A stretch of 33,870 nucleotides of DNA, taken from contig MHSR01000008.1 of assembly GCA_001822815.1 (NCBI GenBank), positions 1 to 33,870 of the forward strand, read 5' to 3'. The translations under genes and the position numbers were made by a program. Positions 2,106-31,546 of the stretch are shown here, piece by piece. This DNA is from Candidatus Terrybacteria bacterium RIFCSPHIGHO2_01_FULL_43_35 (GTDB taxonomy: Bacteria > Patescibacteriota > Minisyncoccia > Terrybacterales > GWB1-40-14). Position 1 is the first letter of the stretch. Each line of letters opens with the position of its first letter. Below the pieces are notes generated by a model. The model saw only the letters and a program-made list of their open reading frames with translations, ran no database searches and was not told where the DNA came from.

Positions 2106-2783
2106 ATGCATCTGCCAAACATTCTAAGCTTAATACGCAAAAAACAAGATGAGGACAAGCGTATTATTATTCTCTTCGCAGCCTTTGTATTGAGCTTTTT
2201 GTTCGTTAGCGGATATCTAGGCTGGATATATTGGAAGTACAACGCCCATTTGCAGTACGGCGATCCCAACAATTGGCTCACGCAAGCGTCAGAAGTAAAT
2301 AACTTTTCTTTTCGTTATCCAACTGAAATGGATGTGATAGTTCCCCAAGACCAGATAAAATACCCCATATCTGTGGTTAAGAAAGGGGAGCGCGGCGAAA
2401 GCGTTTTAATTCAGCTTGGTACCTGGGACACCGAACCATTCCAAGATTTGGAAGCGGCGGTAAAAAGATATCAAAGCGCGACCGGCAATAAACGGCAAAG
2501 TGAAAAAATAGAAGAACTTGTTATAGACGGCCGCGGCGGGGTATTGTTTATACAGAATGAAAATACAGGCCGCCGTATTTTAGAAGCCTTGATTTGGGAT
2601 CCGGTCCCAACCACGCAAAACGAAAATGCCGTTCCGGTTACTGTTTCAGGCATATTCGGTTTACCCGGTTCTGCGCGCGAGATTTCTCTGCAGCTGCCTG
2701 GTAACGCCACCGCCAATGATCGTATTTTATACGAAAAACTTTACCGCGAAATACTTAATTCCGTTAAATTTATAAAGAGATAA
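2106..2783 (+). CDS. Small membrane-anchored protein, PsbP-like
   Basis: N-terminal TM segment followed by 'NFSFRYPTEMDVIVP'; shares architecture with the 3096 and 3799 ORFs. Confidence 0.65.
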   Translation: MHLPNILSLIRKKQDEDKRIIILFAAFVLSFLFVSGYLGWIYWKYNAHLQYGDPNNWLTQASEVNNFSFRYPTEMDVIVPQDQIKYPISVVKKGERGESVLIQLGTWDTEPFQDLEAAVKRYQSATGNKRQSEKIEELVIDGRGGVLFIQNENTGRRILEALIWDPVPTTQNENAVPVTVSGIFGLPGSAREISLQLPGNATANDRILYEKLYREILNSVKFIKR

Positions 2784-2808
2784 TTTACCCAGCCCCAGTT
2801 TTGTATCT
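2784..2808. repeat. Left arm of 25-bp inverted repeat flanking the GIY-YIG ORF
   Basis: TTTACCCAGCCCCAGTTTTGTATCT; reverse complement of 3070-3094 with one mismatch. Confidence 0.95.
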
Positions 2809-2813
2809 TTTTT

Positions 2814-3071
2814 ATGTGGATAGTATATATTATTCAGCATGATGTTTCTAAAAATCTATATATTGGTTTTACGAGTGATTTGAAAAGAAGGCTGCTCCAA
2901 CATAATGCCAAAACAACCAAATCCACCAAAAGGAAAATAGGCATGTGGCATATAATTTATGCTGAAGCTTATCGTAGTAGGTCAGATGCCGTTGAACGCG
3001 AAAAGCGATTAAAAAGCCATGGAAGCGCAAAATTCAATTTATATAAACGCATAGCAGGCAGCCTTCTTTAG
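2814..3071 (+). CDS. GIY-YIG domain endonuclease (COG2827/UPF0213-like)
   Basis: MWIVYIIQHDVSKNLYIGFTSDLKRRLLQHN...AVEREKRLKSHGSAKFN: GIY-YIG motif spacing and the (E)REK.LK motif. Confidence 0.9.
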   Translation: MWIVYIIQHDVSKNLYIGFTSDLKRRLLQHNAKTTKSTKRKIGMWHIIYAEAYRSRSDAVEREKRLKSHGSAKFNLYKRIAGSLL

Positions 3072-3094
3072 ATACAAAACTGGAGCTGGGTAAA
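3070..3094. repeat. Right arm of inverted repeat flanking the GIY-YIG ORF
   Basis: AGATACAAAACTGGAGCTGGGTAAA; overlaps the GIY-YIG stop codon. Confidence 0.95.
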
Positions 3095-3095
3095 A

Positions 3096-3719
3096 ATGAA
3101 CATAAAACATCTAAAAATAACCCCTATAATCATAATCATTCTTGTGGCCGCCGTTATTGTTATCCTTGCTGTATTTTGGTATAAAAATAGCAGTTCAATA
3201 CAAAATAATAGCGGCGTTTCTCTTTTTCCTCAGCTTGAGCGTTATTCCGAAGTACCCGCAGATTGGCTCTTGTTTAGCGAAGAAAAGTCTGGTTATTGGT
3301 TGTACTATCCGCCCGATTGGGTTACGGACGACACATTAAAAGACGTTCCCGAGGTTAAGGTGTTTCTTACTAAGGAAAAAGAACCGTCCGAAGGTTTTTT
3401 CATTATCCGTGCAATAACCGAACCCGGCCAGAGCGACCTTTCGTATCTTGATGGCCACTTTGCAGAAACATTCCGTAAGCAGGCCGTTGAAGGGACGTTG
3501 CGCGAAGAAAATGTGAACATTCAGGGCAGGGATTCAAAATCGCTCGAAGCAAAAGTGATCAATGCCGACACAAAAAAACCAGTGGACGCATATTTACTAG
3601 TCATTTCTGGACAGCAGAATAATCCCGCATATGCCATGTCGGCGATTATAGTCGGACCAAACGCGCCAGCGCTACTTGAGCAGGTTCAGCTCATGACTCG
3701 CTCCCTTCGTTTCTTTTAA
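3096..3719 (+). CDS. Small membrane-anchored PsbP-like protein
   Basis: TM anchor plus 'SGYWLYYPPDWVTDD' motif. Confidence 0.7.
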   Translation: MNIKHLKITPIIIIILVAAVIVILAVFWYKNSSSIQNNSGVSLFPQLERYSEVPADWLLFSEEKSGYWLYYPPDWVTDDTLKDVPEVKVFLTKEKEPSEGFFIIRAITEPGQSDLSYLDGHFAETFRKQAVEGTLREENVNIQGRDSKSLEAKVINADTKKPVDAYLLVISGQQNNPAYAMSAIIVGPNAPALLEQVQLMTRSLRFF

Positions 3720-5367: not shown

Positions 5368-8300
5368 ATGAAAAAAATCACGATCCATTCCAATAAATAC
5401 ACCGCGTTATCGATTGCGATGTTGGTATTATTATACCAGTTAAGCGTCGGTATTTTTTTACCTGAAGTTGCTTACGCTTCTTCGCCGGTTTTTGTCAATA
5501 ACGGTACCGCCGATTCGGGCCTTATTACACCCGGCTCTACAAATGTTGTGGGGTTAAATATAACTCTTCCTCCACTTGACGCGGATACGTTTCTTGATTC
5601 TGATGGCACTGCCGCAACCGTTGCCGGAACGCTTGATTCTGCCTGGGATACCGATGGCATCCAGACGTTCAATTCATCCGGGACATATTCAGATGTTCCC
5701 AACGCCGTCGCGTTTGATTCCGTAAATAACAAGCTTTACGTGGGCGGCTATCAGGATACGAATGGAACGGGAATAGATGCTCTTATTTTGCGTTATAACG
5801 CTAACGGGTCGCTTGATTCGACATGGGATGGCGACGGCAAGGTTATCTATAATTATTCGAGCGGCGAGTTCACCGACGTAAAAGCTCTTGCGTGGGATTC
5901 TGCAAATAACAAGCTTTATGCGGCTGCGCGTTTGGGTACGAACGTAACGGATTTTGCCGTGTTTCGTTTCAACAGCGACGGTTCGCTTGATACGACATGG
6001 GGCAGTACCGGAGTTGTTACCTATAATTCTGGAAGCGCAAGCAATTACGATATTCCTCACGCTATTTTACTGGATGCGGCAACGGGTAAGGTTTATGTGG
6101 CTGGGGAGTATGATGGCTCGACGAGCAACATCGACATGCTCATTCTTCGGTATAACAGTAACGGCACGCTTGATACCACATGGGATTCAGACGGCATAGT
6201 TACTTATAATTCGGGCACGTCTTACGATATTGCGTACGCGCTTGCTTTCGATAGCGTCGATAGCGACCTCTATGTTGGTGGAAGAGGTCCGCTTGAAGAT
6301 GCTACCGTGCTTCGTTACAACAGTAATGGCGCGTTGGATACGGGTTGGGACACAGATGGCATTAAGGTTTATGATTCTGGCGGCGGCAATTATGACCAAA
6401 TTTACGCGTTGGTTTATGACGCTACAAATACGGATTTATACGCCGCGGGCGGACAACAGACTAATGGTTATGACGGTTTTGTTCTTCGTTACAACAGTAA
6501 TGGCGCGTTGGATACAGGTTGGGATACGGATGGCATTCAGACATATAATTCTGGCGGTACGCAAAACGATATATTTCAAGCCATACAGCGAGATTCGGTT
6601 TCGGGAAAGATTTATGCAGTAGGTTGGCAGGCAACGAATGATGCAGACTTTGTAGTGAATCGTTATACCAGCGCTGGCGCGTTGGATACGACATGGGATG
6701 CGGATGGTATTCAAACGTATGATGCGGCCGGCACCCCTTTTGATTCAGATCTTGCGTACGCGGCGGTGCTTGATACAACAAATAGGCGTTTTTATGTGGT
6801 TGGACAACAGAATACGAACGGTATCGATTTTGGGGTTTTGCGTTACTTTACCCATAACGATGGAGCCCCAAGCGCGATTACAAATGGCGATACCCTGGTG
6901 GCAATCGGAGCCAACACGCTTTGTGGAGATACAGACGGCACAACCGCGCCAACGAAAATTCGTACAGACGCCAACACGGATTGCGCAACGATTGATGGAT
7001 CGGTCGTTTTGGGAGAAGACACAACCGGAACCACTTTTAATTTAGGGGCTTCAACATCGCAAGTGCTTTTTCGCGATTCGGTGTCGGTCAACGGCACTTG
7101 GGATAGCGGTGAAGATATTTACTTCGATGCCGATGACAGTCTGCTGTATAACGCCGACACGGTTGATGCTATAACGGTTCGGAATCTTGGTTCTGCGGTG
7201 GATGCGACCGATATCTATATTGTTAAGTGGTGGGTAGACAATGGTGACGGCCAGTTCAGTTCTGCGACAGATGCGATCGTTGATTCGTTGTGTCCGTGGG
7301 ACAGCGCAAATGACTGGGAATGCGGTGATAATACAAGTCTTAGCTATGCCGGCTCTCCCGGAACGACATCACGGATTTATATTACATATGATCTTACGGG
7401 TTCTTCCACTGCTACCACAGGTCAGACAATACAATTACAGGTTGCCGCGTTTTCAGATAGCGGCACCGCAGGCGCATTTAATTCTGGGGATACCGGTATA
7501 TTCTTTTCTAACGCAGGCACTGCCAATACCGGCAATCATGACGGGCCAACGGCTGTAATAACTAACGATAGTACCAGAACAATAGGGAGCGCATCTTCGT
7601 CTTCGTCACCAACACAAAACGGAGTTCCTATTGTTGGCGGAGTTCCGCTTGAGCCGTTGGTTACGAATACCGAAACCGAAACTATTACCGATGAAACCGG
7701 CGGTTCTGTTACGGAAACCGCGGCAAATGACGGAAGTTCAGCAACCGTAAGCGTGGAAGAGGGAACTACAAGCGGAGATGCCGTATTCACAGTGGCAACC
7801 TATGTTGCTTCGGAAGTATTTACCCAAAATCCGTTGCCTTCTGGTTTAGATATTGGAGGCAAGGCCGTTTATGATATTACCGCAACTGTCGGTGGACAAA
7901 GCCTTGATACGTTTGTAAAACCCCTCACGTTAACTTTTGCTTACCAAGAAAATAATTTATCTGCCGGGGTTAGTGAAAATGACTTGCGCTTGGCCGTTTT
8001 TGGCGAAACGGAAAGTAATTGGTACGTTCTTGAAGATGCAGTTGTTGATGTTGCGACCAATACTGTTACCTATCAATCCAACCATCTGACGCGTTTTGCT
8101 TTAGTTAGGCCGGCAGATTCTAGCCCGCCGGCGCAACCAGCCAATGTTTCAGTTGCCGCTATTTCAAACGGTGTCAGGATTTCGTGGCAAAATCCGGCTT
8201 TAGATTTTCATCACGCCCGCATATTGCGAGCGGCAAGCGCAACCGAGACAGGAAGTCTTCTTGCCACCAATCTTATAGGTACGAGCTACGACGACACATC

Positions 8301-8832
8301 TATTTCTTCTTCCGAAGTTTACTACTACAAAGTTTTCAGTATTGACTATGCCGGAAACATGTCTTCGCCCGCCGCTGTTTCGTTCGGCGTCTCCTCTACG
8401 CAGTCGCAGAGCCCACCCGAAGGTCAAGTTTCGCCGGAGTCAAGCGGTGTAGCGGACGGGGATTTAATAAGAGCTCTAAACACGGTTGAGGTTTATGTCA
8501 CTAAAAAAATCGGCGCCACGGTCATAGTAAGGCATATTGTTAACCCGCGCATCTTTGATGTTTACGGCCACTTTGGCGGTAGCGCGGCCTGGAATAAAAT
8601 TGTGCCTGTTGAGAGCTTGGGCAATGCTCGCATTTCAGCATGGGTGCGTGGTTCAGATGGCCGCGTATGGGAAGTTAACGGCGACGCCACCCGTCATTGG
8701 ATGAATATGACTTGGCAGCAATTTGCGTCTCGCGTTGCCGCGGGCGACTCGGCTCTTGCCACCAGTCTTATTTTTGAAGTTAACGATAATGAATTGGCGC
8801 TTTATGCGGTAAGTTCAGACGTGCGTCCATAA
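5368..8832 (+). CDS. Large secreted surface protein: delta-60-like repeats, Fn3 domain, C-terminal repeat module
   Basis: Signal peptide; repeated 'LRYNSNGxLDTTWDxDGIxTYNSG' units every ~58 aa (5640-6850); Fn3-like region; C-terminal 'GDLIRA...VRHIVNPRIFDVYG' unit. Confidence 0.85.
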   Translation: MKKITIHSNKYTALSIAMLVLLYQLSVGIFLPEVAYASSPVFVNNGTADSGLITPGSTNVVGLNITLPPLDADTFLDSDGTAATVAGTLDSAWDTDGIQTFNSSGTYSDVPNAVAFDSVNNKLYVGGYQDTNGTGIDALILRYNANGSLDSTWDGDGKVIYNYSSGEFTDVKALAWDSANNKLYAAARLGTNVTDFAVFRFNSDGSLDTTWGSTGVVTYNSGSASNYDIPHAILLDAATGKVYVAGEYDGSTSNIDMLILRYNSNGTLDTTWDSDGIVTYNSGTSYDIAYALAFDSVDSDLYVGGRGPLEDATVLRYNSNGALDTGWDTDGIKVYDSGGGNYDQIYALVYDATNTDLYAAGGQQTNGYDGFVLRYNSNGALDTGWDTDGIQTYNSGGTQNDIFQAIQRDSVSGKIYAVGWQATNDADFVVNRYTSAGALDTTWDADGIQTYDAAGTPFDSDLAYAAVLDTTNRRFYVVGQQNTNGIDFGVLRYFTHNDGAPSAITNGDTLVAIGANTLCGDTDGTTAPTKIRTDANTDCATIDGSVVLGEDTTGTTFNLGASTSQVLFRDSVSVNGTWDSGEDIYFDADDSLLYNADTVDAITVRNLGSAVDATDIYIVKWWVDNGDGQFSSATDAIVDSLCPWDSANDWECGDNTSLSYAGSPGTTSRIYITYDLTGSSTATTGQTIQLQVAAFSDSGTAGAFNSGDTGIFFSNAGTANTGNHDGPTAVITNDSTRTIGSASSSSSPTQNGVPIVGGVPLEPLVTNTETETITDETGGSVTETAANDGSSATVSVEEGTTSGDAVFTVATYVASEVFTQNPLPSGLDIGGKAVYDITATVGGQSLDTFVKPLTLTFAYQENNLSAGVSENDLRLAVFGETESNWYVLEDAVVDVATNTVTYQSNHLTRFALVRPADSSPPAQPANVSVAAISNGVRISWQNPALDFHHARILRAASATETGSLLATNLIGTSYDDTSISSSEVYYYKVFSIDYAGNMSSPAAVSFGVSSTQSQSPPEGQVSPESSGVADGDLIRALNTVEVYVTKKIGATVIVRHIVNPRIFDVYGHFGGSAAWNKIVPVESLGNARISAWVRGSDGRVWEVNGDATRHWMNMTWQQFASRVAAGDSALATSLIFEVNDNELALYAVSSDVRP

Positions 8833-8850: not shown

Positions 8851-8920
8851 ACCCCGTTAGAGACCACGCCCGCGCTTGCGCGCCCAAAGGGCCTGCGGGG
8901 CGGGCTGTCTCTAACGGGGT
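8851..8920. repeat. Inverted-repeat element with CCCCGTTAGA ends
   Basis: Arms ACCCCGTTAGAGAC (8851-8864) and GTCTCTAACGGGGT (8907-8920), a perfect 14-bp match; GC-rich interior with CGCGC-tt-GCGCG and GCCC-aaa-GGGC hairpins. Confidence 0.9.
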
Positions 8921-9163: not shown

Positions 9164-9267
9164 GTGAATATTTTTGTGTATAGTCGTCTATTGGTTTTTA
9201 TTAATCATTACTTTGCTATATTATAATTTGATGCTTTTCGCTTTGAGATTTTAGCTATATAATGATT

Positions 9268-13085: not shown

Positions 13086-13194
13086 GCTTATAATGCGTTA
13101 TAATAATAAAGCGTAAAGTTAAAAGCGAAAAGCTAAAAAGAATTTCGTGCGTTAGCTTCTTTTACCTTTTTCACCTTACGTTTTAAACTTTTAC

Positions 13195-31417: not shown

Positions 31418-31546
31418 CCCCGTTAGAAAATTGTGTAATACTATGAAACATTTGATACATATTAAGTTAATTGGTTATTTTGCAAGCGCCAAAAAAGTCC
31501 GCAGTACTTTTTCGGCAGCTGACTCGAGGCCAATTTTCTAACGGGG
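31418..31546. repeat. Inverted-repeat element with CCCCGTTAGA ends between secD and secF
   Basis: Arms CCCCGTTAGAAAATTG (31418-31433) and CAATTTTCTAACGGGG (31531-31546), a perfect 16-bp match. Confidence 0.9.

Follow-up and report, generated by a model that had tools for sequence, protein, structure and literature searches.

A GIY-YIG open reading frame framed by inverted repeats in a Terrybacteria genome, a probable minimal transposable element with gene-less derivatives

The window analysed here, a stretch of 33,870 nucleotides from a Candidatus Terrybacteria genome (contig MHSR01000008.1), contains a cassette of 311 bp in which two 25-bp arms enclose an intact GIY-YIG open reading frame of 85 aa. 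The left terminal inverted repeat, TTTACCCAGCCCCAGTTTTGTATCT (2784–2808, forward strand), lies immediately 3′ of the stop codon of a 225-aa gene (2106–2783, forward strand; TAA at 2781–2783), and the right one, AGATACAAAACTGGAGCTGGGTAAA (3070–3094, forward strand), ends 1 nt 5′ of the ATG of a 207-aa gene (3096–3719, forward strand), such that the start codon of this downstream gene abuts the element. The GIY-YIG ORF (2814–3071, forward strand) begins with an ATG at 2814, and its TAG stop codon at 3069–3071 overlaps the right arm, which also contains a GGAG upstream of the next gene's ATG. The arms are complementary at 24 of 25 positions with a spacing of 261 nt. The initial annotation had given the same arm coordinates and complementarity, which we obtained again on recomputation, and had described the same close fit of the arms to the upstream TAA, the ORF's own stop and the ATG at 3096, with which the coordinates agree. 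It had also labelled the two flanking genes PsbP-like; neither matches any Pfam family, and that label is therefore not confirmed.

When 897 places in the window were scanned with the same geometry, the cassette scored 45 and every other place 24 or less, and not one of 1,567 control intervals from other loci reached a score of 32; the pairing is thus not attributable to chance. A transcript of the element is predicted to fold far better than shuffled sequences (z = −5.7, using RNA parameters only). No match to an Rfam intron was found at the window element or in the 14 loci scanned, and a search for a clear target duplication at the window copy found none. We note that another intergenic quasi-palindrome (AAAGCGTAAAGCGAAAAAG...) lies at 2026–2101 of the window, with relatives near 9233–9266 and 13100–13142, and that it is unrelated to the GIY-YIG arms.

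GIY-YIG domains are present in homing nucleases and in other nucleases of mobile elements. The assignment of the ORF to this superfamily in the initial annotation is borne out by a Pfam match to PF01541 (E = 1.1e-18), by an alignment with its relatives in which Y5, Y16, G18, R26, H30 and E63 are invariant, the catalytic Tyr, Arg and Glu among them, and by an AlphaFold model with the GIY-YIG fold (mean pLDDT 83). Its nearest relatives by HMM and Foldseek are the UPF0213 structure 1zg2 and SLX1, and there are weak matches to TIGR01453 and to phage homing endonuclease families. No separate or extra DNA-binding domain was found in the cassette protein, which consists of the bare catalytic domain and is a putative mobility enzyme.

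Relatives of this ORF in the window's own genome and in 34 relatives are often framed by inverted repeats as well, with arms that vary from copy to copy. A contig scan with a five-member alignment as query returned 80 loci, mostly from metagenome-assembled genomes (MAGs) of Parcubacteria and other CPR bacteria, some of which are perhaps misbinned and the related ones among which are not independent. Framing scores of at least 24 were obtained for 63 of the 78 testable protein-selected GIY-YIG ORFs, as against 6 of 1,567 shifted control intervals, and scores of at least 32 for 50 of the 78 as against none of the controls; 15 of the 78 are unframed, as are several GIY-YIG relatives in G001, a second genome of the same genus. 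The initial annotation had named as support GIY-YIG ORFs that recur with the same arms in different contexts. Framed GIY-YIG ORFs elsewhere are many, each with arms of its own; the outcome that it had named as refuting, arms present only here with no other framed GIY-YIG gene, is not what was found. Two other GIY-YIG ORFs of G001 (C21:6273 and C35:12165) have hairpins of the form CTGAGCC(A)AAGGCTCA nearby, which may represent a third family of arms, and a weakly framed one (L169 / L278) occurs in Psychroflexus halocasei, a cultured Bacteroidota isolate and a possible experimental host.

The arms carry a CCC near the outer end and are of two main kinds, which track the kind of protein: proteins with EAY have mostly CCC-YCAC or CCC-AG arms, and those with EAC have CCCGTTAG/CCCTATTAA-like arms. 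Arm similarity and protein similarity are correlated, with a Mantel Spearman r of 0.42 that is uncorrected for relatedness (the highest of 999 permutations gave 0.23). The association also appears when the search starts from DNA alone, as the pattern CCCGTTAGA-N240..270-TCTAACGGG has matches in 43 of 368 genomes of the class and none in the reversed control, and 27 of the 30 element-size arm-pair loci that were read encode a GIY-YIG protein. Elements of the family have an ORF of ~70–90 codons and a total length of about 260–330 bp.

That ORF and arms move as a unit, as the initial annotation supposed, is strongly supported at the level of the family by the recurrent framing, the arm-protein covariation, target duplications described below, near-identical copies in unrelated flanks, and the lack of the cassette at the orthologous site of a same-genus genome. 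On contig 27 of G273, two 273-bp GIY-YIG elements are 98.9% identical, and their flanks beyond the shared target are alike at chance level only; similarly, two species of the same genus have a 92.9%-identical element at unrelated sites. An empty orthologous site was predicted for the window locus, and in G001 the orthologs of both neighbour genes indeed adjoin with no GIY-YIG ORF between them, but the junction is not a clean one, containing instead ~130 bp of unrelated intergenic sequence. The window arm, searched as TTTACCCAGCYCCAGTTTTG, has six sites in its own genome and none in the control, and the sites elsewhere in that genome include four short inverted pairs or hairpins. Among 384 genomes of the class, exact window arms were not found outside the window's own, where there are just isolated near-matches at close to the background level, including hairpins and pairs whose arms are related. 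Because the window copy has no visible target duplication, the case for its mobility rests on the family, on the four short elements with the same arm, and on its absence from the sister genome.

Short copies that lack the gene are numerous. The sequence read, 669 of the 827 kb of the window's genome (which is 98% complete) and 637 kb of G001, contains 64 short elements with CCCGTTAGA arms, and in 44 of these an exact 4–5-bp target duplication lies flush with the ends (shuffled pairs gave a mean of 3.5 and a maximum of 10 in 500 rounds). The duplications are of the type TNN(N)A, with T first and A last in 36 of the 44. Two MITE-like non-autonomous elements of the CCCGTTAGA arm family are present in the window, neither assigned to a strand: one at 31419–31545, with a TATG duplication, and one at 8853–8918, with a TTGA duplication, 20 bp after the stop of the ORF at 5368–8832. 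The latter ORF encodes a secreted-looking protein of 1154 aa with tandem repeats of 165–180 bp (beta-propeller-like). The arm of these short elements in the form ACCCCGTTAGARA frames two GIY-YIG ORFs of the window's genome and occurs there 62 times, versus 3 in the reversed control, mostly as inverted pairs 57–138 bp long. Such copies have the properties of MITEs, being short, bounded by terminal inverted repeats (TIRs), associated with target duplications and provided with the same ends as an autonomous element.

No CCCGTTAGA-family arm pair with a spacing of 300–4000 bp was found in the sequence read of both genomes, and therefore no larger, transposase-sized relative was seen. MITE-size pairs occur in 69 genomes, including 27 of the 43 that have element-size pairs (odds ratio 11.4, p = 6e-12, uncorrected for relatedness). 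G001 contains 25 copies of MITE size but lacks an exact copy of element size. The MITE at G100:C11:23834 retains an in-frame GIY-YIG start and the first ~15 residues and, judged by this remnant, is an internal-deletion derivative of a GIY-YIG element; simple internal deletions of this sort are a minority among the MITE-like copies, and many MITE families have no ORF remnant. Between the two same-genus species no base-exact empty MITE sites were obtained, the flanks being too diverged.

Element ends are placed where they remake their target, at start codons, tRNA 5′ ends, prepilin motifs and RNA hairpins. For 18 of 33 element-size copies one end directly adjoins the ATG of an ORF at least 60 codons long, and 20 of 79 protein-selected copies have an end within 2 nt of a start codon (expected 2.4, p = 3e-13); without exception, the end next to the start codon is the one 3′ of the GIY-YIG ORF. 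Among 30 copies, 12 have the displaced start codon in the reading frame of the GIY-YIG ORF (mostly MNPVR...), and in four copies the domain is not preceded by an ATG of the element itself, which together suggest that the latter use the captured start. The window copy, by the position of its right arm, is of the start-codon class. At G000:C22:5924–6198, L262, L265 and L268, a start codon immediately beyond the left arm shares the reading frame of a GIY-YIG ORF that has no own ATG before the domain.

Eleven loci are at the 5′ ends of tRNA-Ala/Val genes, where the tRNAs are intact, the right arm provides the tRNA's GGGC, and NNNTA is duplicated. On the left flank of the tRNA-located elements at L110, L114 and L123 (the family of L123 being represented by one genome) there are extra copies of the right end, for example CTGGGTGAGGG, which look like footprints of earlier elements. 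Prepilin GFTLIE motifs are a further insertion site, as are hairpins of RNase P RNA (rnpB) and 16S rRNA, for which folded models show the arms extending the host stem; target duplications were looked for at the rnpB and 16S insertions and none was seen. In rnpB of L118 and L124, a short hairpin with element-related arms occupies the place at which L157 has a full GIY-YIG element, and it is possible that these hairpins are element remnants that serve as ribozyme stems. The precision of landing may reflect either choice by the enzyme or survivorship.

We conclude, with a probability of roughly 0.7, that the cassette is a copy of a minimal transposable element family, composed of one GIY-YIG ORF between clade-specific TIRs and accompanied by non-autonomous derivatives, and from these sequence comparisons we infer that the GIY-YIG protein carries out transposition. 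In the mechanism that we propose, the protein would bind the arm ends, probably in the form of a dimer or a larger multimer, cut the element ends, and make a staggered cut of 4–5 nt at a short palindrome-like target, after which the element would be joined to the target and the gaps filled; MITE-like copies would be mobilised in trans by the cognate protein. Element ends, duplication and target flanks together show an inverted symmetry centred on the 4–5 bp, which fits a GIY-YIG multimer that recognises two arm ends, or arm-like half-sites, and cuts with a 4–5-nt stagger. GIY-YIG restriction enzymes are homodimers or tetramers that act on palindromes (PMC4081073). On insertion, the element end would remake the sequence that it displaces, whether the A of an ATG, the GGGC of a tRNA 5′ end, the G-F-T codons of a prepilin or the stem of an RNA hairpin, and insertion into essential genes would therefore be tolerated. 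It also seems reasonably likely that the family constitutes a new class of DNA transposable element, one in which a bare GIY-YIG domain of ~85 aa is the sole protein and the transposase, the TIRs are its substrate, MITEs are moved in trans, and gene starts and genes of structured RNAs are targeted for insertion in a manner that rebuilds the site.

Several other readings account for part of these observations. The GIY-YIG ORF could be a passenger captured within MITE ends whose movement depends on a recombinase (DDE, Y1 or other) from another locus, as TIRs with 4–5-bp duplications are typical of classical transposases; the many MITE families with no trace of the ORF and the abundance of MITE-size copies in G001, where exact element-size copies are lacking, lean in the same direction. 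We consider this unlikely, however, given that arm sequence tracks the GIY-YIG clade, that neither genome has a larger arm-bounded element, that the element-size copies read so regularly encode GIY-YIG, and that proteins of the two transposase families searched, Y1 (PF01797) and DDE_Tnp_1 (PF01609), were not found in the window's nearly complete genome. A route through single-stranded DNA is also conceivable, in which the arms form a stem, an SLX1-like structure-specific GIY-YIG enzyme cuts its base, and the resulting hairpin is inserted into palindromes or loops; the stems are near-perfect (as the z-score of the window transcript, from RNA parameters only, indicates), the branched-DNA nuclease SLX1 is among the nearest folds, some of the target sites are loops of hairpins or are flanked by complementary sequence, and short perfect hairpins with the same arms occur. 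Staggered double-strand cuts nevertheless explain the short duplications more simply, and we view the single-stranded route as doubtful.

The GIY-YIG fold is that of homing nucleases, and this, with the weak matches to TIGR01453 and phage homing families and the insertions in conserved sites of tRNA, rnpB, 16S and pilin genes, recalls homing, whereby the nuclease would cut cognate empty alleles and the cassette would be copied by homologous repair. The copies at many unrelated sites, the short duplications and the non-autonomous relatives argue against homing as the only route, and with neither a ribozyme or intron at the loci scanned nor a separate DNA-binding domain we regard it as very improbable. 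Hardly credible is the idea that the repeats around the ORF form a hairpin that regulates a resident gene or stabilises its RNA, and are no part of a mobile unit: the arms do form a strong transcript stem, and the right arm has a sequence at which ribosomes may bind to translate the next gene, but target duplications, dispersed copies, gene-less arm pairs and absence from the same-genus ortholog pair all speak against it. A terminator or regulatory hairpin was rejected on the grounds of the duplications and the dispersed copies.

Known prokaryotic DNA transposases belong to the DDE, HUH, tyrosine, serine and a few other classes. If the transposition reading is true, a GIY-YIG transposase would represent a new chemistry and, at ~85 aa, would be among the smallest; it would account for many of the small GIY-YIG paralogs and short palindromes of CPR genomes, and for the GIY-YIG insertions within rRNA genes of CPR bacteria that were assigned neither to introns nor to homing in a published survey. 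By rebuilding start codons, the 5′ ends of tRNAs and prepilin motifs, the family would show how a parasite can live in streamlined genomes, and because arms and protein covary, its specificity can be tested directly in vitro. The family is widespread in the ultra-small CPR/Patescibacteria, with many gene-less derivative copies, and apparently undescribed: no description of such GIY-YIG elements was found in the literature searched, whose coverage excluded subscription papers and preprints, and the text of PMC11270868 nowhere mentions inverted repeats.

Among known systems, the closest solved structures by sequence, which are also among the closest by fold, are those of UPF0213 proteins (BH0048, 1zg2; EF2693, 1ywl), for which, to our knowledge, framing by inverted repeats is not known. 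GIY-YIG homing endonuclease genes (I-TevI and others of phages and organelles) share the fold, the catalytic residues and insertion at conserved sites, but the elements described here have no DNA-binding domain and no self-splicing intron core around the ORF, and they have inverted-repeat ends and dispersed gene-less copies. Penelope-like retroelements/terminons and Tsy transposons likewise tie a GIY-YIG nuclease to a mobile element (PMC6431247, PMC10293859), although in those elements the nuclease is found alongside a reverse transcriptase or tyrosine recombinases, and is non-essential in Tsy, whereas here it is the only gene. With DDE insertion sequences and their MITEs the family shares terminal inverted repeats, short non-autonomous copies and target duplications, which are short and of near-fixed length in the CCCGTTAGA family and not seen at the window copy; it differs in that no DDE transposase gene lies between the ends of an element of ~260–330 bp, whose single ORF is a bare GIY-YIG domain. 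REP/BIME sequences with their RAYT (TnpA_REP) genes are similar in that a small nuclease-type gene sits between inverted copies of a short, dispersed palindromic unit that is also found alone, but there the enzyme is of the HUH/Y1 and not the GIY-YIG type, and 4–5-bp target duplications are seen here. With Y1 and DDE_Tnp_1 transposases absent from the genome and GIY-YIG the sole enzyme between the arms, the family thus works most like the REP/RAYT and IS/MITE pairs and belongs to neither.
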